NCBI GenBank assembly: GCA_009778325.1
Contig: WRJZ01000035.1
Location: 1-49,081 of the forward strand
Length of the DNA: 49,081 nt
Direction of reading: 5' to 3'
DNA from: Candidatus Endomicrobium neocapritermitis
GTDB lineage: Bacteria > Elusimicrobiota > Endomicrobiia > Endomicrobiales > Endomicrobiaceae
Position 1 is the first letter of the stretch. Every line of letters starts with the position of its first letter. The notes beneath the pieces are model-generated. The model was not told where the DNA came from and did no database searches. It saw only the letters and a list, made by a program, of their open reading frames with translations. Below, in pieces: positions 5,877-36,173 of the stretch. The position numbers and the translations under genes are program-made.

Positions 5877-7599
5877 AATATTTTTTTATTCCTTCATAAA
5901 TTGAATCCGCTGTTGCAACCTGGAAATTTTTACGGTTAAGTTTTGATTCATCCGAATAGTTGCTTATAAAAGCGCTTTCGACAAGCACGGCAGGCATTTG
6001 TGCGCCTCTAAGCACGTAAAAGTTAGCCTGTCTGACTCCTCTGTTCGGGATCTTCAGCCTTCCGGGAGTTTCTCCGGCTATAAAGCTGCCCAGCTCGGAA
6101 GACTCGTTAATATATTCATTCACCATCATTGACCATAACATATCCTGAAGCATCGAACGTTTTTTTGAAGGCTTGCCTTCAAGCTCTATAACGGAGTTTT
6201 CCAGTCTTGCCGTAGCCGCGGACTGCTCGTCGGTCGCTTTTTCGGATAAGAAGTAAATTTCAAATCCCGTAGCGCTTTTGTTAAAATTCGCGTTACAGTG
6301 TATTGAAACAAATAAATCGGCTTTATTGTCATTTGCAATTTTTGTTCTTTCCACCAAAGGTATAAAAGTATCGTCGCCCCTGGTCATAATTACTTCATAA
6401 TCCGTATCGTTTCTTAAAATTTTTGCAAGCTCATGGGCGATTGAAAGATTGATATTCTTTTCTCTCGTGCCGTTCGGCCCTACCGCTCCCGGATCTTCGC
6501 CGCCGTGTCCCGCGTCAACAACAATAATTCTTTTCTTTTTGAGAAGTTTTTTCTTCGGAGCCGTGTTTTCCGGAAGCAAACCTTCAACGCCGGACAGGTC
6601 GTCAATAATCGCGTAGCTGTCGTCAACTATGGATTGTTCTTCAAAACTGATTATCTGCACTTTAGCCAAATCCTGATTATCCTGACCGAATTCTATCGGC
6701 GAGAGCGTTTCCGTAATTTCGGATCCGCCGGAATCTTCGGCTTGGAGTTTCGCGCTGTCTTTTAAATAATCCGGCAAAGTATCATACTCTTCCGCTTCCG
6801 GTACGGATGAATTCGAGAGCATTGTTATGTCTACGGGCAAAGAATGTTCTATATCTACTGCTATTCTGTAAGGGTTTTTAAGTTTTGAAATTTTTACTAA
6901 TTTAGGCGTTTGCTGAAGATTTATTTTAAATACCGCGTCTTTCCCTTCGGTATTATAAAGAATGTCCATAATCGCGCCGTTGTTTGCGTAAACAAAATCC
7001 CTTTGCACCTGTCCGCGGTGAACATTTAAAATTATTGAACCGGACGCTTTTGACACGGTGTAAGGAAGATTTTCACTTAGCTCTATAATTACCTGTGTTT
7101 CTTCAGGCCTTGTAAAATACCTTACCGCGGAAATATTCGCGTACGGGATAACATTCAATACATTAGTCTTGCTGTTCCATGAAGTTTCCGCTTGCGCGGC
7201 ATCGGCAAACTCTTTTAACGTGAGAACTTCAGGCGAAATGTAGAGCTCGCCGTTTATTACTCTTGAAGGCATTTCGGTTTTTGATAATGTTTTGCCGAAG
7301 AATACTTCTTTGCTGTTTCCTCTTATAACAACGGTTTTATTGTTGGGGAAAGTAAGAGTAGCCCTTTTGCTAACCTGACCGAATGCCGTATTCGCATTAT
7401 ATATTTCAGCGACTTCTTTTATATGTAAAAAGTCCGTTTTATCGGTTACCGCGTACGCGCTGACGCCGGAAAAAACGTTTCCGTCAATAATTACGAAAAC
7501 AGGTTTTGTTTTAAGCGTGCCGCTTTTTTCCGCCGCAAATGCCGCCGAAAAACAAAACAGCATAAGGCAAGAGATAAATAAATTAATAAATTTCTTCAT
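5839..7599 (-). CDS. N-acetylmuramoyl-L-alanine amidase, AMIN + Amidase_3 type
   Basis: Zinc amidase that cuts the MurNAc-L-Ala bond in peptidoglycan. The 586-residue protein has a signal peptide (residues 1-22, hydrophobic core then AFAA), a ~90-residue segment resembling the copper-amine-oxidase-N/stalk type domain, an AMIN-like domain (about 150-260, with the TQVIIELSE strand motif), a low-complexity linker, and the catalytic Amidase_3 domain from about residue 357. Catalytic residues are visible: His in VVDAGHGGEDPGA, Glu in GTREKNINL, His in FVSIHCNAN, and Glu in LVESAFISN. An insertion between the second His and final Glu may be the autoinhibitory helix known in AmiB/AmiC. It overlaps the neighbouring genes on both sides. 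Secure as AmiC-like; the exact paralogue name is not assigned. Confidence 0.93.
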   Translation of the reverse strand: MKKFINLFISCLMLFCFSAAFAAEKSGTLKTKPVFVIIDGNVFSGVSAYAVTDKTDFLHIKEVAEIYNANTAFGQVSKRATLTFPNNKTVVIRGNSKEVFFGKTLSKTEMPSRVINGELYISPEVLTLKEFADAAQAETSWNSKTNVLNVIPYANISAVRYFTRPEETQVIIELSENLPYTVSKASGSIILNVHRGQVQRDFVYANNGAIMDILYNTEGKDAVFKINLQQTPKLVKISKLKNPYRIAVDIEHSLPVDITMLSNSSVPEAEEYDTLPDYLKDSAKLQAEDSGGSEITETLSPIEFGQDNQDLAKVQIISFEEQSIVDDSYAIIDDLSGVEGLLPENTAPKKKLLKKKRIIVVDAGHGGEDPGAVGPNGTREKNINLSIAHELAKILRNDTDYEVIMTRGDDTFIPLVERTKIANDNKADLFVSIHCNANFNKSATGFEIYFLSEKATDEQSAATARLENSVIELEGKPSKKRSMLQDMLWSMMVNEYINESSELGSFIAGETPGRLKIPNRGVRQANFYVLRGAQMPAVLVESAFISNYSDESKLNRKNFQVATADSIYEGIKKYYARKDKIKPKTK

Positions 7600-8143
7600 T
7601 TTTATGTTTAAAAACCACCTTTTTCCCGTCTATGTATAACTCTTTTATCGACGCGTGTCCGTACGCATTAACGGCGATTTTCGCGGAAACTCTATTTATG
7701 TTTCTGGCATGTTCTATTTCTTTGCCTTCATCTTCCGGAACAAAGAAATTTTCTATTCCGTAAATTATAGCTGGTCTTGGATATTTGTCAATGAGTCCTT
7801 TTATGAACAATCCTTTTGGCGGGCGTTCCGTGTATATGTCTCCGCCGATATAATAGTCCCCGTCTTTTATGAGCGTTACGTAAACGGTTTGTCTGTTGTA
7901 AAGGTTTTCTTCATCAACATATCCGCCGTATTCGTTGATAATTTTCTGGTTTTCCGATATTTCGCTTATCTCGTAATTTAAAATCACATAATCGCCTCGG
8001 AACAAATCTCTCGGGTCAACCGGAACGGTTCTAAGCATAATTTCCGTGCCGAAATTAAGAAGATACTCTTTGTAGGCAACATAAGAGCTTATCATTAAAA
8101 ACCACGCCGCAAGTAAAATGAGAAATAAATTTTTTCTATTCAC
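7583..8143 (-). CDS. GDYXXLXY-domain membrane-anchored protein
   Basis: A 186-residue protein with one N-terminal transmembrane segment (residues ~6-24) and the family signature: FRGDYVILNYEIS, where GDY-x-x-L-x-Y is exact. The rest is predicted beta-rich and extracytoplasmic. Function of this family is unknown. It is very often encoded next to DUF2157 membrane proteins, as here, where the two genes overlap by 8 bases. Its 3' end overlaps the amidase start by 17 bases. The translational coupling to an amidase and murI hints at an envelope role, but that is inference. Confidence 0.88.
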   Translation of the reverse strand: MNRKNLFLILLAAWFLMISSYVAYKEYLLNFGTEIMLRTVPVDPRDLFRGDYVILNYEISEISENQKIINEYGGYVDEENLYNRQTVYVTLIKDGDYYIGGDIYTERPPKGLFIKGLIDKYPRPAIIYGIENFFVPEDEGKEIEHARNINRVSAKIAVNAYGHASIKELYIDGKKVVFKHKNEEIY

Positions 8144-19478: not shown

Positions 19479-19530
19479 AAAAAAAGACGTTTGAGAGTTT
19501 GAGCATTGAACTCTTCAAATGTCTTTTTTT
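19479..19530. terminator. Bidirectional intrinsic terminator
   Basis: Seven A's, then GAC and a ~15-bp stem with one mismatch and one bulge, ending GTC and seven T's. It can end the plus-strand efflux operon and, in the other direction, the tmRNA transcript. Confidence 0.85.
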
Positions 19531-19572
19531 GCAGGCAATTGAAAATTATTTTGCAAAGGATTTTGACAACGG

Positions 19573-19740
19573 CATGATGTACGCCTTCGGCGCATGATGT
19601 CGCTGCGCTAATGATGTATTGCCTTCGGCAACATGATGTAATGTGTCCTGTCGTTAATGTGTACGAAGTACATACATCATTTCCGAAGGATACATCATGC
19701 ATGCAGTGCACACCATGTCCCGCAGGGACACATCATTGCC
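19573..19740. repeat. Left arm of ~168-bp inverted repeat bracketing tmRNA
   Basis: Made of about seven small hairpins (for example ACGCC-TTCG-GCG, TTGCC-TTCG-GCAA, GTAC-GA-AGTAC) separated by CATGATGT-like 8-mers. The reverse complement of the whole arm matches 20150-20318 almost end to end; differences are mostly single bases in loops. It starts 5 bases from the tmRNA 3' end and is preceded by AACGG. Confidence 0.85.
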
Positions 19741-19744
19741 TTTA

Positions 19745-20143
19745 TGGAGGTGGCGGGAATCGAACCCGCGTCCGAAAATGCTTCAGTACGACCGCTACAG
19801 GCTTAGTCCGGAAGATTTATCTCGTTTATAATGCCGTCTCCGGACGGGATTACATTATAAACCAGCGCCGTTTTGATTTCATTTCAGACTGACGGCACAA
19901 GCCGCCCGAAACTAACCTGCCCTTGTCGTTTTATCCCTATAGCAGGTGTCTAAGGTAAAACGAAGCCGCTTAAGCGGCTATTGGCAATAACCCAAATCCC
20001 ATCATTGGCATGGGATTTACGTTCTGCACTGGAACGATATTGATATCGTTGTTTATTTTGCGGTCGATTTTTACGGAGCCATCGACCAACTCCGGCCTGC
20101 TGTCTGTACCTCTGACCATCTCCGTCGAGACCTGTACACCCCC
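19745..20143 (-). ncRNA. ssrA: Transfer-messenger RNA (tmRNA)
   Basis: One-piece tmRNA of about 399 nt that rescues stalled ribosomes. The 5' GGGGGUG pairs with 3' CACCUCC (one G-U), followed by the discriminator A. The 3' CCA is not encoded. The T arm (GCGGG-UUCGAUU-CCCGC) and the 5' tRNA-like part (CUCGACGGAGAUGG) are typical. The mRNA-like frame ends at TAA (19970-19972), inside the AGCCGCTTAAGCGGCT palindrome expected of helix 5. By alignment with the E. coli ANDENY start, the resume codon is probably AAC at 20051-20053. That gives a ~27-residue tag beginning NNDINI and ending GFGLLPIAA, long but with the usual small-hydrophobic C-terminus. The resume codon is inferred; the gene call is secure. 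Confidence 0.95.
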
Positions 20144-20149
20144 GTTAAC

Positions 20150-20318
20150 GGCAATGATGTGTCCTTGCGGACATGATGTGCACTACGTGCATGATGTATC
20201 CTTCGGAAATGCTGTATGTACTTCGTACACATAAACGACAAGGACACATTACATCATGTTGCCGTAAGGCAATACATCATTAGCGAAGCGACATCATGCG
20301 CCGAAGGCGTACATCATG
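20150..20318. repeat. Right arm of ~168-bp inverted repeat bracketing tmRNA
   Basis: Inverted copy of 19573-19740, starting 7 bases before the tmRNA 5' end and running into the tadA stop codon (the ACATGA ending tadA is repeat sequence). No promoter fits between this arm and tmRNA, so the tmRNA precursor probably includes it. Confidence 0.85.
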
Positions 20319-20793
20319 TCTTTGATTTTTTTCTCTTTTTTTCAAAGAACTTTCTTATTATATCAGCGCACTCATCTTTCAGTATGCCGCTTTTAAATTC
20401 TATTCTGTGGTTCAGCTTTTTATTATTTGTGATTTTGAAAACACTGCTGCATGCACCTGCTTTTTTATCGTATGCGCCGAAAAAAATTTCTTTTATTCTG
20501 GCATTCACCAAAGCGCCGGCACACATTGTGCACGGTTCTATTATAACATAGATACTGCAGCCGTTCAAACGGTAATTTTCAAGTTTTTTTGAAGCTTTTC
20601 TCAGCGCGACGATTTCCGCGTGCGCCGTAGGGTCTTTATCAATTATACATCTGTTAAACCCTTTTGCGATTATTTTATTGTCTTTTACTATAACAGCCCC
20701 GACAGGAACTTCGCCGATATCCTGCGCCTTTTTCGCCTGCTTAAGCGCCTCTTTCATAAAGTAAATGTTTTTTTTTAATTGTTCATTGTTCAT
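20314..20793 (-). CDS. tadA: tRNA-specific adenosine deaminase TadA
   Basis: Zinc deaminase converting A34 to inosine in the tRNA-Arg(ACG) anticodon. The 159-residue protein has the full catalytic set: His-Ala-Glu in TAHAEIVAL, the PCTMCAGAL zinc cysteines, and VPVGAVIV upstream. The C-terminal FFEKKRKKS resembles the basic TadA tail. The ATG at 20793 lies inside an AACAATG heptamer repeat, so MNNEQLKKN is repeat-encoded. Met13 (20757) is an alternative start, but Bacillus TadA also has residues before the MKEA helix. No Shine-Dalgarno is seen for either. It follows ybgC by 9 bases and precedes tmRNA on the same strand. Confidence 0.9.
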   Translation of the reverse strand: MNNEQLKKNIYFMKEALKQAKKAQDIGEVPVGAVIVKDNKIIAKGFNRCIIDKDPTAHAEIVALRKASKKLENYRLNGCSIYVIIEPCTMCAGALVNARIKEIFFGAYDKKAGACSSVFKITNNKKLNHRIEFKSGILKDECADIIRKFFEKKRKKSKT

Positions 20794-21210: not shown

Positions 21211-21229
21211 GACAGCTCCTTATTTAGAG

Positions 21230-21328
21230 GCTTAGAAGTTCGGAAGTTCAGCAGCTCGGAGAAGCTCTGGTCGTTTTGTCTTTGTTTTTTGCCGTTGCCG
21301 AGCTGCTGAGTTGCCGAACTTCCGCCTT
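21230..21328. repeat. Octamer-repeat element (GAAGTTCG family) in ybgC leader
   Basis: Arms of GAAGTTCG/GAAGTTCA/GCAGCTCG octamers (21230-21266) and their inverse (21295-21326) surround a core that on the minus strand reads CAACGGCAAAAAACAAAG then ACAAAACGACC. The same core and arms recur in opposite orientation at 33606-33717. The transcribed ybgC leader could fold into a long hairpin here. Confidence 0.8.
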
Positions 21329-21343
21329 TAAAATTTAATGAGA

Positions 21344-30600: not shown

Positions 30601-30818
30601 TTACAACAATTACGGCAATGCTTCCTTTGGCAGCCGGTTTCGGCGGAAAAACATCGACAAACCAGCCGATGGCTATTGCCGTGGTAGGCGGGCTTGCATT
30701 TGCGCTTGTTCTGGCTTTGGTTTTTGTGCCTTATGTTTATCTTACCGCAAAAGGCATGAGAAATACCGAAGACAGCGAGTTATTTATGTGGAACGATGAA
30801 AAGACAAATAACATATAA
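27606..30818 (+). CDS. RND efflux permease, divergent (second of pair)
   Basis: A 1,070-residue RND transporter, start ATG at 27606 with AGGGTG upstream and N-terminus LRLPVDRPVTTVMI. TM4 reads GMVIDNSNMVLEN, again Asp-Asn in place of Asp-Asp, and TM10 reads GNVTNISILLVDRY with Thr at the Lys940 position. Both permeases of this operon therefore share the same relay changes, unlike the canonical pump at 14509. Two consecutive RND genes behind one adaptor recall MdtBC-type heteromeric pumps, but assembly is inference. The last residues and TAA stop merge with an AT-rich inverted element. Confidence 0.9.
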   Translation: MSILRLPVDRPVTTVMIFLSIGLLGLISYTRIPQELFPSMEYPQITIVTKYEGAGPEEAEKLISKMVEETAGTVKNIKRVSSISKEGTSIVTCEFRWGTNMDFAAMDVREKIDLIKEALPRDALEPVVLKYNPTQVEAMMLSVSYNSGSVSALRMADLRRIAKKNLKDELERLEGVAKVELRGGEEKEIIIEVDKGRLLANQVSITEIITSLQNANITYPAGTIKEEKREFLVKTVGEFRDIEDIAGLSFSKIDYNIQHNMSTKRIRNQLQETGDKIIFLRDIAEIRESLKDRRGYSRYNGDENISVSIYQQSGSNLINLSNTVRRKLQEIREQGKIPEDVDIKITSDQSDFIKESLANLYANGLQGILLSFILLYFFMRSFMASTIINVAIPVALFTTLSIMYFQDISINTMSLGGLTVGIGMVIDNSNMVLENILMQYHKNKVSEKKEAIYAATRSLLAPILSATFTSVAIFIPFVFVAGMIGQLFKQLALTITFSLLSSIFAAMFLVPRLALTADLSKQSITAGMKFINGYFTPIFKKALDWRMGKVAFFILIYVFVGVVCFMLIPKEFMPKVDERRFVLNMTLSPDTPLEITNSTSKRIEKLIAGYPEIRDISVSVGSTGESAGVAAIESLATYQARIIVRLNREGMSTNELVADIANEIRKWNIRGLETEFITQQGLFGTGVGASSGLLVEIRGKDLAILKRSADEIRKIMENMPQFYGIKLDPPDEVPELRLTIDRERASAFGLSTQDISAMTLASIKGFVATKLKRKDDEMDIRVRMRPEDRDSLEKVLEMTAYSPWGMTLSLKQIVDHEFVKTLPAIKRIEGERTYLLSANVRGNFTSAVREIEEILKDKYNNDDVHCVISGEMLAMQEALSQISFALILGVIIIFMILASQFESLYQPLIVMIAVPLGVVGSLFVLFITMQSINSISMLGFIMLVGNVTNISILLVDRYNRMLETESAKNGGKKLDMITLKRKVVETTVNHVRPIAMTTLTTITAMLPLAAGFGGKTSTNQPMAIAVVGGLAFALVLALVFVPYVYLTAKGMRNTEDSELFMWNDEKTNNI

Positions 30819-30872
30819 AATGTAAAAAGTAATGTGTGGTTTTTTACGTTTTATATTTTATATATTATATGT
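30811..30872. repeat. AT-rich inverted-arm element at the end of the RND operon
   Basis: ACATATAAAATGTAAAAAGTA and an inverse arm (TTTTTTACG, TTTTATA, TTTTATATATTATATGT) flank a short GTGTGG centre. The left arm contains the TAA stop of the second permease. It could fold as a terminator-like hairpin ahead of ruvX. Confidence 0.6.
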
Positions 30873-30878
30873 TGTTAA

Positions 30879-30893: not shown

Positions 30894-31319
30894 TTGGGCA
30901 GAATAATGGGAATAGATTACGGCATAAAAAGAATCGGCATTGCCATGACCGATATTATGCGGATTATGTCTTCTCCTTTTGACACAATAGACAGCAGCGA
31001 ATCTATACGAAAAAACGCGGCTGCCGTGGTCGAAATAGCAAAAAATAACGATGTTTCGGCAATTGTCGTAGGCATTCCGGTAAATATGAACGGCACAGAA
31101 GGCGAAATGGCGCAAACCGTAAGAAAATTTATTGAAGAACTTAAAAAAATTACCGATATGCAAATTTTTGAAATAGACGAAAGACTGACAACCGCCCAGG
31201 CTGAAAGAATGCTTATTGACGAAGGCGACGTTTCGCGGGATAAAAGAAAAGGATTGAAAGACAGGCTGGCTGCATCGTTCATTTTACAGACTTATTTAGA
31301 TACAATGAACAACAATTAA
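30894..31319 (+). CDS. ruvX: YqgF/RuvX-family RNase H-fold protein (putative pre-16S rRNA nuclease)
   Basis: RNase H-fold nuclease implicated in pre-16S rRNA 5' processing in E. coli and proposed as a Holliday junction resolvase. The 141-residue protein shows MGIDYGIKRIGIAMTD with the first catalytic Asp, VVGIPVNMNGTEGEMA, the Glu in EIDERLTTAQAERML, and the final Asp in KDRLAASFILQTYL. TTG at 30894 is chosen because the G8 tract sits just upstream; ATG at 30906 is the alternative. The C-terminal MNNN and stop are encoded by the start of an AACAATT repeat. Confidence 0.93.
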   Translation: MGRIMGIDYGIKRIGIAMTDIMRIMSSPFDTIDSSESIRKNAAAVVEIAKNNDVSAIVVGIPVNMNGTEGEMAQTVRKFIEELKKITDMQIFEIDERLTTAQAERMLIDEGDVSRDKRKGLKDRLAASFILQTYLDTMNNN

Positions 31320-31430
31320 CAATTAACAAGTAACAATGAACAATTGTTGTGATTTTGCGAAGCAAAAACCTGTTAATATGTTTTGATAAGGCTTAGCCTT
31401 ATCAAAACTCCGACATTATTAATTGTTATT
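31308..31430. repeat. Gene-end element, AACAATT family with central hairpins
   Basis: Left arm: AACAATTAACAATTAACAAG and further heptamers, overlapping the ruvX stop. Centre: TTTTGCGAAGCAAAA and a long hairpin built of TTTTGATAAGGC and its inverse. Right arm: TTATTAATTGTTATT. The next gene's GGAG follows directly. Confidence 0.8.
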
Positions 31431-31440
31431 TGGAGTTTTT

Positions 31441-31938
31441 GTGCATTACATAATCGACGGCTACAATGTAATTAACTGCAGCGATAAGTTTGCGGCTTCC
31501 ACGCTTGAGGGCAGGCGCAATAAGTTTATTGATTTTATATCGCAGAACAGGCCGCACGGAAGCCTCAGAAACAGCATTACCGTTGTGTTTGACTGTAAGT
31601 CGAAAAATCCTTACGAATCAAACGGATATAACCGGTCGCATATAGGAAACATAGAAATAATTTTCAGCGACGGGATTATTTCGGCCGACGATATTATTGC
31701 CGAAATCGTCGATAATGCCGAAAATCCTTATGAAATAACCGTTGTGACAAACGACAAAGGAATAAGACGCCGCACGGCTCCGAGCGGCGCAAAGCATGAA
31801 GCCGTTGAAAGTTTTTTGGATAAAGGTTCGAAACAGAAAAATATAAACAGGTCCCGGGAAGCTTTATCAGGAGATATAAAAGAAGAAATAAATGAGGAGT
31901 TTGAACGGCTGTGGTTAAAAAAGCGCGGTATAAAATAA
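31441..31938 (+). CDS. NYN-domain (YacP/Rae1-like) ribonuclease
   Basis: PIN-like NYN domain protein of 165 residues. Family acidic residues are in YIIDGYNVIN, VFDCK, and the SADDIIAEIV / VVTNDKGIRRR segments, matching the YacP group. Bacillus Rae1 (YacP) cuts mRNA in the ribosomal A site; whether this one does is unknown. Start is GTG at 31441, preceded by GGAG 5 bases upstream; the frame opens 6 codons earlier in repeat sequence. Overlaps mltG by 28 bases. Confidence 0.88.
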   Translation: MHYIIDGYNVINCSDKFAASTLEGRRNKFIDFISQNRPHGSLRNSITVVFDCKSKNPYESNGYNRSHIGNIEIIFSDGIISADDIIAEIVDNAENPYEITVVTNDKGIRRRTAPSGAKHEAVESFLDKGSKQKNINRSREALSGDIKEEINEEFERLWLKKRGIK

Positions 31939-32885
31939 TAATATTTACGGCAATGATTTGCCTGTTTGCGGCGGGGTGCGCGTGCAACGGCGGCAATGCG
32001 GAAAAAATTGCTTTTCAGGTTAAAAGCGGCGAAAGCGCGTCTTCAGTCGCTTTGCGTTTAAAACAGGAGAATCTGATTTGTTCCAAAAATTTATTTTTGG
32101 CTTATGCCAAGTTCACAGATTCTGCGGATAAAATAAAAGCGGGCTATTATGAGTTTTCCGCAAAAGACGGCATGTTTAAAATTTTGAATGAGCTCAAAAG
32201 CGGTTCAAAAAGCCTGATAAAATTTACAATTCCGGAAGGCAGCAATATAAAACAAACGGCGGAAATTATAGCTTCCAAAACAAATATAAGCGCCGAACGG
32301 TTCATACGGCTGGCCTATGAAGAAAATATGGAAGGATACTTAATGCCTGAAACATATTTTATCGACCCTTCAATGAAAGAAGAAGATATTATCGCGGTAA
32401 TGAGAAAAGAGTTTGACAGAAAAGTTACGCCTGAAATGTATGAAAGAGCCAAAGAACTTAACATGACAATGGATCAAATAATAACTCTTGCTTCAATTAT
32501 TGAAAAAGAAGCGGTTAAACCGGATGAACGCGCTACAATATCCGCCGTTTTTCATAACAGGCTGAAAAAGAACATAAGGCTTGAATCATGCGCGACCGTT
32601 TTGTACGCCATGGGCGTCAATAAAGCAAGGCTTACCGCTGAAGATCTCTTTTTTGATTCGCCTTACAATACCTACAGGCATTCAGGGCTTCCTCCCGGTC
32701 CTATTTGCAGCCCTGGGATTAAATCAATAGAAGCGGCTTTATATCCGGAAAATTCAAGCAGTTTATTTTTTGTTTCCCAGGGAAACGGCAGCCATCTTTT
32801 TGCCGAAAATTTTGAAGAGCATGTAAAAAATAAGCGGGAAACAAAGAAAATAATAAAAAAAAGGCAATTAACAATGAACAATTAA
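31911..32885 (+). CDS. mltG: Endolytic peptidoglycan transglycosylase MltG (YceG-like)
   Basis: Cuts nascent glycan strands and is thought to set glycan length. The 324-residue protein has an N-terminal hydrophobic segment followed by FAAGC, a lipobox-like site, where most MltG proteins have only a transmembrane anchor. A LysM-like part (FQVKSGESASSVALRLKQEN) precedes the YceG domain. The catalytic Glu is in SIIEKEAVKPDE, with RLESCATVLYAMG and the GLPPGPICSPG hallmark. Starts GTG at 31911 inside the NYN gene (GAGGAG 11 bases upstream). The C-terminal QLTMNN and TAA come from an AACAATG repeat. Confidence 0.92.
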   Translation: MVKKARYKIIIFTAMICLFAAGCACNGGNAEKIAFQVKSGESASSVALRLKQENLICSKNLFLAYAKFTDSADKIKAGYYEFSAKDGMFKILNELKSGSKSLIKFTIPEGSNIKQTAEIIASKTNISAERFIRLAYEENMEGYLMPETYFIDPSMKEEDIIAVMRKEFDRKVTPEMYERAKELNMTMDQIITLASIIEKEAVKPDERATISAVFHNRLKKNIRLESCATVLYAMGVNKARLTAEDLFFDSPYNTYRHSGLPPGPICSPGIKSIEAALYPENSSSLFFVSQGNGSHLFAENFEEHVKNKRETKKIIKKRQLTMNN

Positions 32886-32992
32886 CAAATAACAATGTCG
32901 GAGTTTCGGCTTTGCCGAAACCTATTGCAAGTTTTCGCAAGGCGAAAACACAACAATTATTAATTGTTCATTGTTCATTGTTAATTGTCGTC
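32864..32992. repeat. Gene-end element, AACAATT family with central hairpins
   Basis: AATTAACAATGAACAATTAA heptamers overlap the mltG stop. The centre has GTTTCGG-CTTTG-CCGAAAC and GTTTTCGC-AA-GGCGAAAAC hairpins. The inverse arm (TTATTAATTGTTCATTGTTC) ends just before the sigma-like gene. Same design as 31308-31430 with different hairpins. Confidence 0.8.
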
Positions 32993-33004
32993 GGATTAAT
33001 TCAA

Positions 33005-33735: not shown

Positions 33736-34926
33736 ATGGAAAAGAAAAAAATTTATCTGGATAACAGCGCGACAACGCAGGCTGCTCCCGAAGCCGTAAA
33801 AGAAATGATTCCTTATTTTTCGGATATATACGGAAACGCGTCGAGTTTTCATTTTTTCGGCAGGGAAGCAAAAAAGGCTCTTGATGAAGCCAGAGCAAAA
33901 ACAGCCTCTCTTTTGAACGCCGCACCCGAAGAAATTATTTTTACCGGATGCGGGACTGAAGCGGACAACATTGCCATATTCGGCGTTCTTAATGCTTACG
34001 GTAAAAAAGGTCATGTGATAACCAGTAAAATCGAACATCACGCGGTGCTTTATTCATGCAGGCATCTTGCCCAATCGGGTTATGAAGTGACGTTTCTTGA
34101 TGTTGACGGCAGCGGAGCGGTTTCGGTTGACGCTTTAAAAAAAGCCGTCAGGGAAGACACTCTTCTTGTAAGCATAATGCATGCCAATAATGAAGTCGGC
34201 ACAATCCAGCCGATAGAAGAAATTGCCGCGGTTTTAAAAGAAATCAACAAAGACAGGAAAGACAAAATATACTTTCATACCGACGCTGTTCAGACTGTCG
34301 GCAAAGTTAAAATTGACGTTAAAAGACTCGGCGTTGATTTGCTCGCGATATCCGCTCATAAATTTCACGGACCTAAAGGCATAGGGGTTTTATATGTAAA
34401 AAAAGGCACGGGCATATCCCCTGTTATGTTCGGCGGTCATCATGAAAACGGCCTGCGCCCGGGAACCGAAAATGTCGCTTTTGCGAAAGGGCTTGCCAAA
34501 GCTTTGGAGTTTTCCGTAGCTGAAATGGACGAACACGATAAGCATATATTAAGCTTGAGGGAAAAACTTAAAAAAGGCATTTTGGAAAAAATTCCCGAAG
34601 TTATAATAAACGGCAGCAATGAAAAAGCCGTGTCCGGAATTTTAAATGTCAGCTTTAAATATATAGAGGGCGAGTCTTTGCTTGCAATGTTAGACATGAA
34701 CGGCATAGCCGCTTCAACGGGCTCGGCCTGCGCGTCAGGTTCATCCGAACCTTCGCATGTTTTATCCGCAATGTGCGTTGACCCGATAAGCGCGCAGGGA
34801 GCGATAAGGTTTTCTTTCGGTTATACAAATACGCATGATGAAGTTGATTATGTTTTGGAAGTTTTGCCTGGCATAGTGGGAAAACTCAGAAATATGTCGC
34901 CGGTATGGCAGTCAAAAAGACAGTGA
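33736..34926 (+). CDS. Cysteine desulfurase (NifS/IscS family)
   Basis: PLP enzyme that takes sulfur from cysteine as a persulfide. The protein is ~396 residues. Signatures: YLDNSATTQAAPEAV at the N-terminus, SKIEHHAV with the PLP-stacking His, DAVQTVGK, the PLP Lys in SAHKFHGPKGIG, and the active Cys in STGSACASGSSEPSHVL. The ATG at 33736 has AAGG 9 bases upstream; ATG at 33727 would abut that site. It is followed by mnmA, suggesting it supplies sulfur for 2-thiouridine in tRNA. No iscU is nearby. The final KRQ and TGA stop run into a TAGTGAG repeat. Confidence 0.94.
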   Translation: MEKKKIYLDNSATTQAAPEAVKEMIPYFSDIYGNASSFHFFGREAKKALDEARAKTASLLNAAPEEIIFTGCGTEADNIAIFGVLNAYGKKGHVITSKIEHHAVLYSCRHLAQSGYEVTFLDVDGSGAVSVDALKKAVREDTLLVSIMHANNEVGTIQPIEEIAAVLKEINKDRKDKIYFHTDAVQTVGKVKIDVKRLGVDLLAISAHKFHGPKGIGVLYVKKGTGISPVMFGGHHENGLRPGTENVAFAKGLAKALEFSVAEMDEHDKHILSLREKLKKGILEKIPEVIINGSNEKAVSGILNVSFKYIEGESLLAMLDMNGIAASTGSACASGSSEPSHVLSAMCVDPISAQGAIRFSFGYTNTHDEVDYVLEVLPGIVGKLRNMSPVWQSKRQ

Positions 34927-35039
34927 ATAGTGAGTAGTTAGTAGTGAGTAATTGTTGTTCAGGGCTTTGCCCTGCTTATAAATAGGTGCGCAAAGCGCAC
35001 TCCAAAACTACTAACTATTCACTATTTACTGTCGTTAAA
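34921..35039. repeat. Gene-end element, TAGTGAG family with central hairpins
   Basis: Left arm AGTGAATAGTGAGTAGTTAG, overlapping the desulfurase stop. Centre: CAGGGC-TTT-GCCCTG and GTGCGC-AAA-GCGCAC hairpins. Right arm CTACTAACTATTCACTATTT. It shares a GTGCGC hairpin and arms with 14405-14498. Confidence 0.82.
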
Positions 35040-36059: not shown

Positions 36060-36169
36060 GTGAAGCAGAAGTTCAGCAACTCAGAAGTTCGGAAGCTCGG
36101 TAACGGCAACAACAAATCTTTTGTCTTTGCTGAACTGCCGAGCTTCCGACCTTCCGAGCTGCTGCCGTT
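36060..36169. repeat. Octamer-repeat element after mnmA
   Basis: GCAGAAGTTCAGCAACTCAG and more octamers, a core with TAACGGCAACAACAAA and its partial inverse TTTTGTCTTTG, then the inverse arm of GAGCTTCC/GACCTTCC units. Begins 2 bases after the mnmA stop. Confidence 0.8.
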
Positions 36170-36173
36170 TAAT

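Follow-up and report, generated by a model that had tools for sequence, protein, structure and literature searches.

A dispersed palindromic element with an oriented preference for tRNA-gene ends flanks the tmRNA gene of a termite-gut Endomicrobia genome

Introduction

MITEs such as Correia, ERIC and RUP are short, non-coding, dispersed intergenic sequences with terminal inverted repeats, which form transcribed hairpins and are present at a given site in some genomes and absent in others. The element described here resembles them in all of these properties. Unlike them, it has neither a detectable target-site duplication nor a parent IS that we could find, its interior is built of reiterated 7-mers and mini-hairpins, and it shows a flush, oriented preference for tRNA and tmRNA ends. 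The retrotransposons Ty1 and Ty3 of yeast and TRE of Dictyostelium target safe sites at or close to tRNA genes, and they rely on RNA polymerase III factors and on reverse transcription. Our element, unlike these, is non-coding and resides in a bacterial host, and no reverse transcriptase (RVT_1) was found in its own genome or in four congeners, which led us to reject a reverse-transcribed origin. The word 'tRNA' appears nowhere in the text of a 2024 review of prokaryotic MITEs (PMC10969869).

REP, BIME and REPIN sequences, which are associated with REP-associated tyrosine transposases (RAYTs), are likewise palindromic and intergenic, form chains of opposed hairpins, occur in genomes with RAYT and leave no visible duplication (PMC2817692, PMC3116915, PMC3733652). 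They consist of a 20-40 bp palindrome with a GTAG or CGTC tag and flank the RAYT gene, whereas our element is a 180-bp unit that lacks a conserved tag and does not flank the RAYT genes. Marine Beggiatoaceae contain intergenic heptamer repeats, TAACTGA (MacGregor 2015, cited in PMC4853749), which, as described there, also reiterate a short word in direct and inverted orientation between genes; the word is a different one, and the citing passage does not mention placement at tRNA ends (PMC4853749). A genome paper on Endomicrobia mentions only CRISPR and IS where palindromic elements are concerned (PMC11257099), and the open-access papers that we searched yielded no description of the elements reported here.

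We analyzed a 49,081-nucleotide stretch of Candidatus Endomicrobium neocapritermitis (contig WRJZ01000035.1, called the window for simplicity) in the context of its own termite-gut genome (G000; 2.38 Mb, 54 contigs) and of the congeners G001-G004. Our data support an interpretation of the sequences around the tmRNA gene as mobile elements and extend it by a new point, namely the oriented, flush preference for tRNA-gene ends.

Results

The tmRNA gene lies between two inverted copies of a palindrome

The tmRNA gene (ssrA) was identified by Rfam (RF00023 match at 20143-19742 on the minus strand, 162.4 bits, E 2.4e-64, threshold 47 bits); ARAGORN did not detect it in a scan of the window. Its neighborhood comprises tadA and a terminator-like hairpin, which is the probable end of the ssrA transcript (Table 1), and the adjacency of tadA and ssrA is conserved in G001, G002 and G004. 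The two arms around ssrA are inverted and 93% identical over ~178 bp (BLAST, E 4e-69), which together with the Rfam match confirms what had been read from the sequence alone, a tmRNA between near-identical inverted arms. That sequence-only reading had placed the arms 5 and 7 bases from the mature ends, but the actual distances are 0 and 2 nt: the left arm opens with TAAAGGC at the base following the discriminator A (19745), and TAACGGC of the right arm begins 2 nt upstream of the mature 5' G (20143). The stop codon of tadA (20314-20316) falls within the right arm.

Both arms carry ATGATGT words in one half and ACATCAT words in the other, with short hairpins between them. The sequence CATGATGT occurs nine times in the window, always within the arms (0.65 expected, maximum of 3 in 100 shuffles). 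Many of the hairpin loops had been taken for UUCG; the loops consist of 3 nt, and in 75/84 cases they read T-N-C in one half or G-N-A in the other. UUCG tetraloops were ruled out by the stem register, since C(UUCG)G would disrupt the stems.

In G002 and G004, the tmRNA gene encodes ...CACCTCCACCA, CCA included. The TAA of the element stands in place of this encoded CCA in G000, so that CCA would have to be added to the tmRNA once it is trimmed. Read by eye, the tag of the G000 tmRNA is long (~29 residues, KINNDINIVPVQNVNPMPMMGFGLLPIAA) and readable in G002 too; for the G001 tmRNA, ARAGORN gives a different short tag.

Table 1. Features of the ssrA locus and related palindromes in the window.
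Feature	Position	Strand	Remark
Terminator-like hairpin past left arm	19479..19530	.	T7/A7 flanks; inverted repeat and fold
Left arm, on the 3' side of the tmRNA; one copy of the ATGATGT palindrome	19567..19744	-	TAAAGGCAATGATG end right after discriminator base
tmRNA gene (ssrA)	19745..20143	-	Rfam RF00023 match
Right arm, 5' of tmRNA, second, inverted copy	20146..20324	+	TAACGGCAATGATG end 2 nt from mature 5' end
tadA (tRNA adenosine deaminase-like)	20314..20793	-	immediately upstream of ssrA
Related word-repeat palindrome, GAAGTTCGGAAGTTCAGCAGCTC family	21213..21330	.	ends GCC[GT]TTAA
Related palindrome	32859..32993	.	AAAGGCAATTAACAATGAAC...GTTAATTGTCG
Related palindrome	34915..35037	.	AAAGACAGTGAATAGTGAG...CACTATTTACTGTCGTTA
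Related palindrome	36060..36170	.	CAGCAACTCAGAAGTTCGG...GAGCTGCTGCCGTTTAA
Further class members	30802-30874, 31280-31460, 33612-33720		AA[AC]GGCA...TGCC[GT]TT ends

The arms are copies of a dispersed element that is polymorphic among congeners

With the left arm as query, BLAST returned 35 matches in G000, corresponding to ~20 copies; this census rests on the matches and on fetched stretches, and copy number and some flanks are approximate because many copies are cut by contig ends. The element measures ~180 bp with a longest stop-free stretch of 60 codons and terminal inverted repeats TAAMGGCA(A)TGATGT / ACATCATGCCGTTR, i.e. it is short, non-coding, multicopy and dispersed as MITEs are. Copies were found between protein genes (e.g. 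pstS-pstC) as well as beside RNA genes, and at least five full copies are located away from tRNAs. Other pairs of copies are 88-95% identical, and since the arms resemble each other no more than they resemble other copies, they are best read from these identities as two independent insertions. A longer variant of ~245 bp with additional GTGCGCAAAGCGCAC and GTGCGGCTTTGCCGCAC hairpins was seen in L021 (contig C52 of G000; 2181-2445 and 7480-7724) and L025 (1628-1858). Some copies in G000 (L006, L019, L021 2181-2460) stop just upstream of a ribosome binding site (AAAAAGGAGG, AAAAAGGGGG), where they may provide 5' leader sequence.

Among 100 genomes (G000 and 99 relatives), the element is present in four, all of one genus (G000, G001, G002 and G003); it was found neither in the congener G004 nor in the 95 genomes outside the genus. 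A pattern search of named genomes gave one match, on contig WRNH01000006.1 (Endomicrobia bacterium isolate Th196P4bin33). A virus, plasmid or phage origin was discarded, with zero matches among viral contigs, plasmids and phages. Between G000 and G003 the words change from ATGATGT/ACATCAT to ATGATAC/GTATCAT, together in both halves.

ssrA is present once, at the conserved tadA-ssrA locus, in G000, G001, G002 and G004. In G002 and G004, ssrA follows tadA directly and carries no arms; G001 has the element on the 3' side only (...CACCTCCACCTGATAAATACAATGATG), its 5' side being occupied by an unrelated palindrome. A role specific to tmRNA, one of the options initially envisaged, is not supported, given these armless and one-sided loci and the occurrence of arms without ssrA.

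The sequence-only reading had also considered a mobile cassette that captured ssrA or inserted on both sides of it. Insertion on both sides is supported by the dispersal of the element, its absence at ssrA in two congeners and its one-sided presence in the third, whereas capture does not agree with the single copies at tRNAs and between protein genes. For a composite cassette, in which inverted copies travel together with the captured ssrA, one could invoke the bracketed ssrA itself and a second inverted pair of copies on C52 that brackets 5 kb; however, that segment consists of ordinary pst genes, no arm-ssrA-arm unit was found elsewhere, copies occur singly and the tadA-ssrA locus is conserved. 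We therefore rejected the composite cassette, to which we assign almost no likelihood.

The element belongs to a large class of word-repeat palindromes

The termini of the element are common to hundreds of palindromes with other reiterated words inside (AATTACGAATTACG, AGAGAATAGAG, GAAGCTCGGAAG, AATTAACAATTAAC and others), several of which lie in the window (Table 1). We estimate that the AA[AC]GGCA...TGCC[GT]TT class has more than 400 members in the G000 genome, and it is nearly absent from G004. Palindromes per 100 kb amount to 18.8 in G000, 15 in G001, 23.5 in G003 and 2.5 in G004. No target-site duplication was detected in 49 class members, and the empty sites of the ATGATGT element itself are too diverged to settle the matter. 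Near-perfect inverted repeats of ~250-280 bp that start with TAGGGTGTGTCGACATATATAA form a different family (L200 14737-14992, L201 8060-8340, L214 876-1134).

One defined end of the element faces tRNA and tmRNA genes

To relate the copies to RNA genes, we listed the 43 tRNAs of G000, which together with the tmRNA make 44 genes, and inspected the flanks of the 20 copies with a readable facing end. Ten of the 20 facing ends lie at most 10 nt from a tRNA or tmRNA end (chance expectation 0.01-0.07, depending on the genome share counted as intergenic). The neighbors are tRNA-Tyr, Ser(cga), Leu(tag), Leu(taa), Glu(ttc), Met, Ala(ggc) and the tmRNA on their 3' side, and Pro(cgg) and the tmRNA on their 5' side; one further copy lies 30 nt from Pro(ggg). 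The orientation is uniform: in all ten cases it is the TAA[AC]GGCAATGATGTGTCC end that faces the RNA gene. The diverged version in G003 adjoins tRNA ends at six out of eight loci (Ser, Leu twice, Ala, Pro twice). At several of these tRNAs, the spacers of G004 and G001 are free of the ATGATGT element; the spacer between tRNA-Tyr and tRNA-Gly, for example, is 13 bp long in G004, is occupied by a GGTAAAAGG-type palindrome in G001 and contains the ATGATGT element in G000. In L125 (contig C77 of G003), a duplicated 3' fragment of tRNA-Glu lies ~240 bp downstream of tRNA-Glu and is directly followed by a copy of the element. Some copies away from tRNAs likewise come after hairpins (L011, L014, L018 and L024, by eye).

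The sequence-only reading had called for a search for the hairpin array elsewhere and had held that relatives with an armless ssrA, and arms found randomly at other places, would argue against a tmRNA-specific role. Both armless relatives and dispersed copies exist, but the placement of the copies is not random, half of them being at tRNA ends.

Such a pattern could also arise without any targeting if palindromes flood these genomes and the ones bordering tRNA genes survive because they are tolerated. The density of ~19 palindromes per 100 kb in G000 fits this idea, as does the presence of other word families in tRNA spacers, including different families in the same spacer across species. However, in an unbiased 400 kb only one out of 75 other palindromes is tRNA-adjacent, compared to the 10/20 facing ends of the element (Fisher 2e-7), the orientation is uniform and the tRNA-end pattern recurs in G003. 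We thus regard the complete absence of targeting as unlikely, while part of the preference could reflect selection, with insertions immediately next to tRNA genes being spared.

Given that eight 3' ends and two 5' ends are taken among 44 genes, chance would flank 0.36 genes on both sides, a calculation which assumes independent ends and to which copies at contig ends add uncertainty. Enclosure of ssrA hence requires no special cause.

Candidate enzymes for mobilization

Among the mobilizing gene types tested in G000 (RAYT, reverse transcriptase, IS110 and IS630), RAYT was the only one found; IS110 and IS630 transposases were dismissed as movers, neither having been detected there. No transposase gene of these types with ends matching the element was found in G000. 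There are three RAYT genes in G000, two in G001 and none in G004, and none was detected in G003, which is 70% complete. It is conceivable, though doubtful, that the RAYTs of the genome mobilize the element specifically, acting on single-stranded DNA: RAYT genes are present in G000 and G001 and lacking in the palindrome-poor G004, the other enzyme types went undetected in G000, the ends of the element are rich in hairpins and the 49 related palindromes show no duplication. Against this stand the repeats at the RAYT genes themselves (L251, L253, L254, L255, L256), which are flanked by inverted GGGGACG...GTTGAC repeats, GGGGACG(T/G)AG(T/G)A(G/A)TTGAC, and not by AAMGGCA ends; the ATGATGT element is absent from their flanks, unlike in REP/BIME systems. 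The element also has no conserved tag (GTAG in 5/20 copies, CGTC in 0/20), no RAYT was detected in G003 (although that genome is 70% complete), and G063 has five Y1 genes yet no palindromes in 60 kb. Owing to the different flanking repeats and the imperfect correlation, a connection between RAYT and the element can only be conjectured.

The probable presence of the arms in the ssrA transcript

There is no room for a promoter between the right arm and the tmRNA, as had been pointed out before, and a terminator-like hairpin lies past the left arm; both arms are therefore probably transcribed as part of the precursor. In folding calculations, the precursor with paired arms reaches -455 kcal/mol, compared to -230 +/- 9 kcal/mol for shuffled sequences and to a sum of -291 kcal/mol for arms and tmRNA folded separately, and the arm-arm duplex by itself is computed at -303 kcal/mol with 166 pairs. 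According to these models the arms could pair in the transcript, and the 5' arm could fold alone first. The proposed long stem around the tmRNA is thus thermodynamically real, but it is expected of any two inverted copies, and we saw no sign of selection for it.

Across copies, hairpins HP1, HP2 and HP4 display compensatory changes: two-sided changes that keep the pairing number 31 cells versus 8.6 in shuffled data (score 0.127 versus 0.052), with a sharp drop when partners were slid. This fits a conserved DNA or RNA fold. It may instead stem from template-switch correction of imperfect palindromes, and the covariation is therefore no proof of RNA function.

Taken as a selected maturation device, the arms would form a duplex cut by RNase III, or their hairpins would guide RNase P and 3' trimming. 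The strong precursor and duplex folds, the compensatory changes, the terminator and the promoterless gap speak in favor. However, G002 and G004 lack the arms and G001 has one on the 3' side only, so that the arms are not conserved with ssrA among relatives as a tmRNA maturation element should be; copies are found between protein genes as well, those away from ssrA show the covariation too, which moreover has the alternative source named above, and double flanking is near what chance provides. We consider such a device very improbable, and a selected role of the arms in tmRNA maturation is unsupported.

Discussion

The arms around ssrA are most probably two independent insertions of a non-autonomous mobile palindrome of ~180 bp, similar to MITEs and REPs, with an oriented preference for tRNA-gene ends. 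The element is dispersed, it is polymorphic among congeners, and it prefers these ends in one orientation. We infer that insertion itself is targeted, with the acceptor-stem palindrome or a hairpin base in single-stranded DNA as possible targets, and that the element is moved by an enzyme acting in trans, perhaps a transposase of the HUH/RAYT type.

Its near-symmetrical termini, TAA[AC]GGCAATGATGT / ACATCATGCCGTT[GA], enclose four 7-mers of the forward type (ATGATGT) and four of the reverse type (ACATCAT), with small hairpins between them, so that the element can fold either into a single branched cruciform or into a series of hairpins. The ATGATGTGTCC end would favor tRNA and tmRNA gene ends as insertion sites, in most cases right after the discriminator base or CCA and sometimes just upstream of the 5' base. 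That this end can lie on the 3' or the 5' side of a tRNA fits a mechanism recognizing the acceptor stem, as a palindrome, or the base of a hairpin. As the same end faces the RNA from either side, two hits on one gene would resemble flanking inverted repeats.

More tentatively, the element may represent a bacterial mobile palindrome that recognizes tRNA and tmRNA genes by their acceptor stem, be it as palindromic DNA or as a hairpin, or by the end of the mature RNA, and that inserts with a defined end of its own directly at the mature 3' or 5' terminus, while its 7-mers co-evolve to maintain a ladder-like fold; it would possibly be the first tRNA-end-seeking element of its kind in bacteria.

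Should tRNA ends prove to be genuine insertion targets, the element would be a bacterial counterpart of the eukaryotic tRNA-seeking transposons that needs no RNA polymerase III factors. With its many copies, empty sites in congeners and concerted word changes, the element makes both the targeting rule and the mobilizing enzyme testable. For the organism, a pair of insertions can surround an essential RNA with what may be a 166-bp duplex, and the cell must still process its tmRNA correctly.
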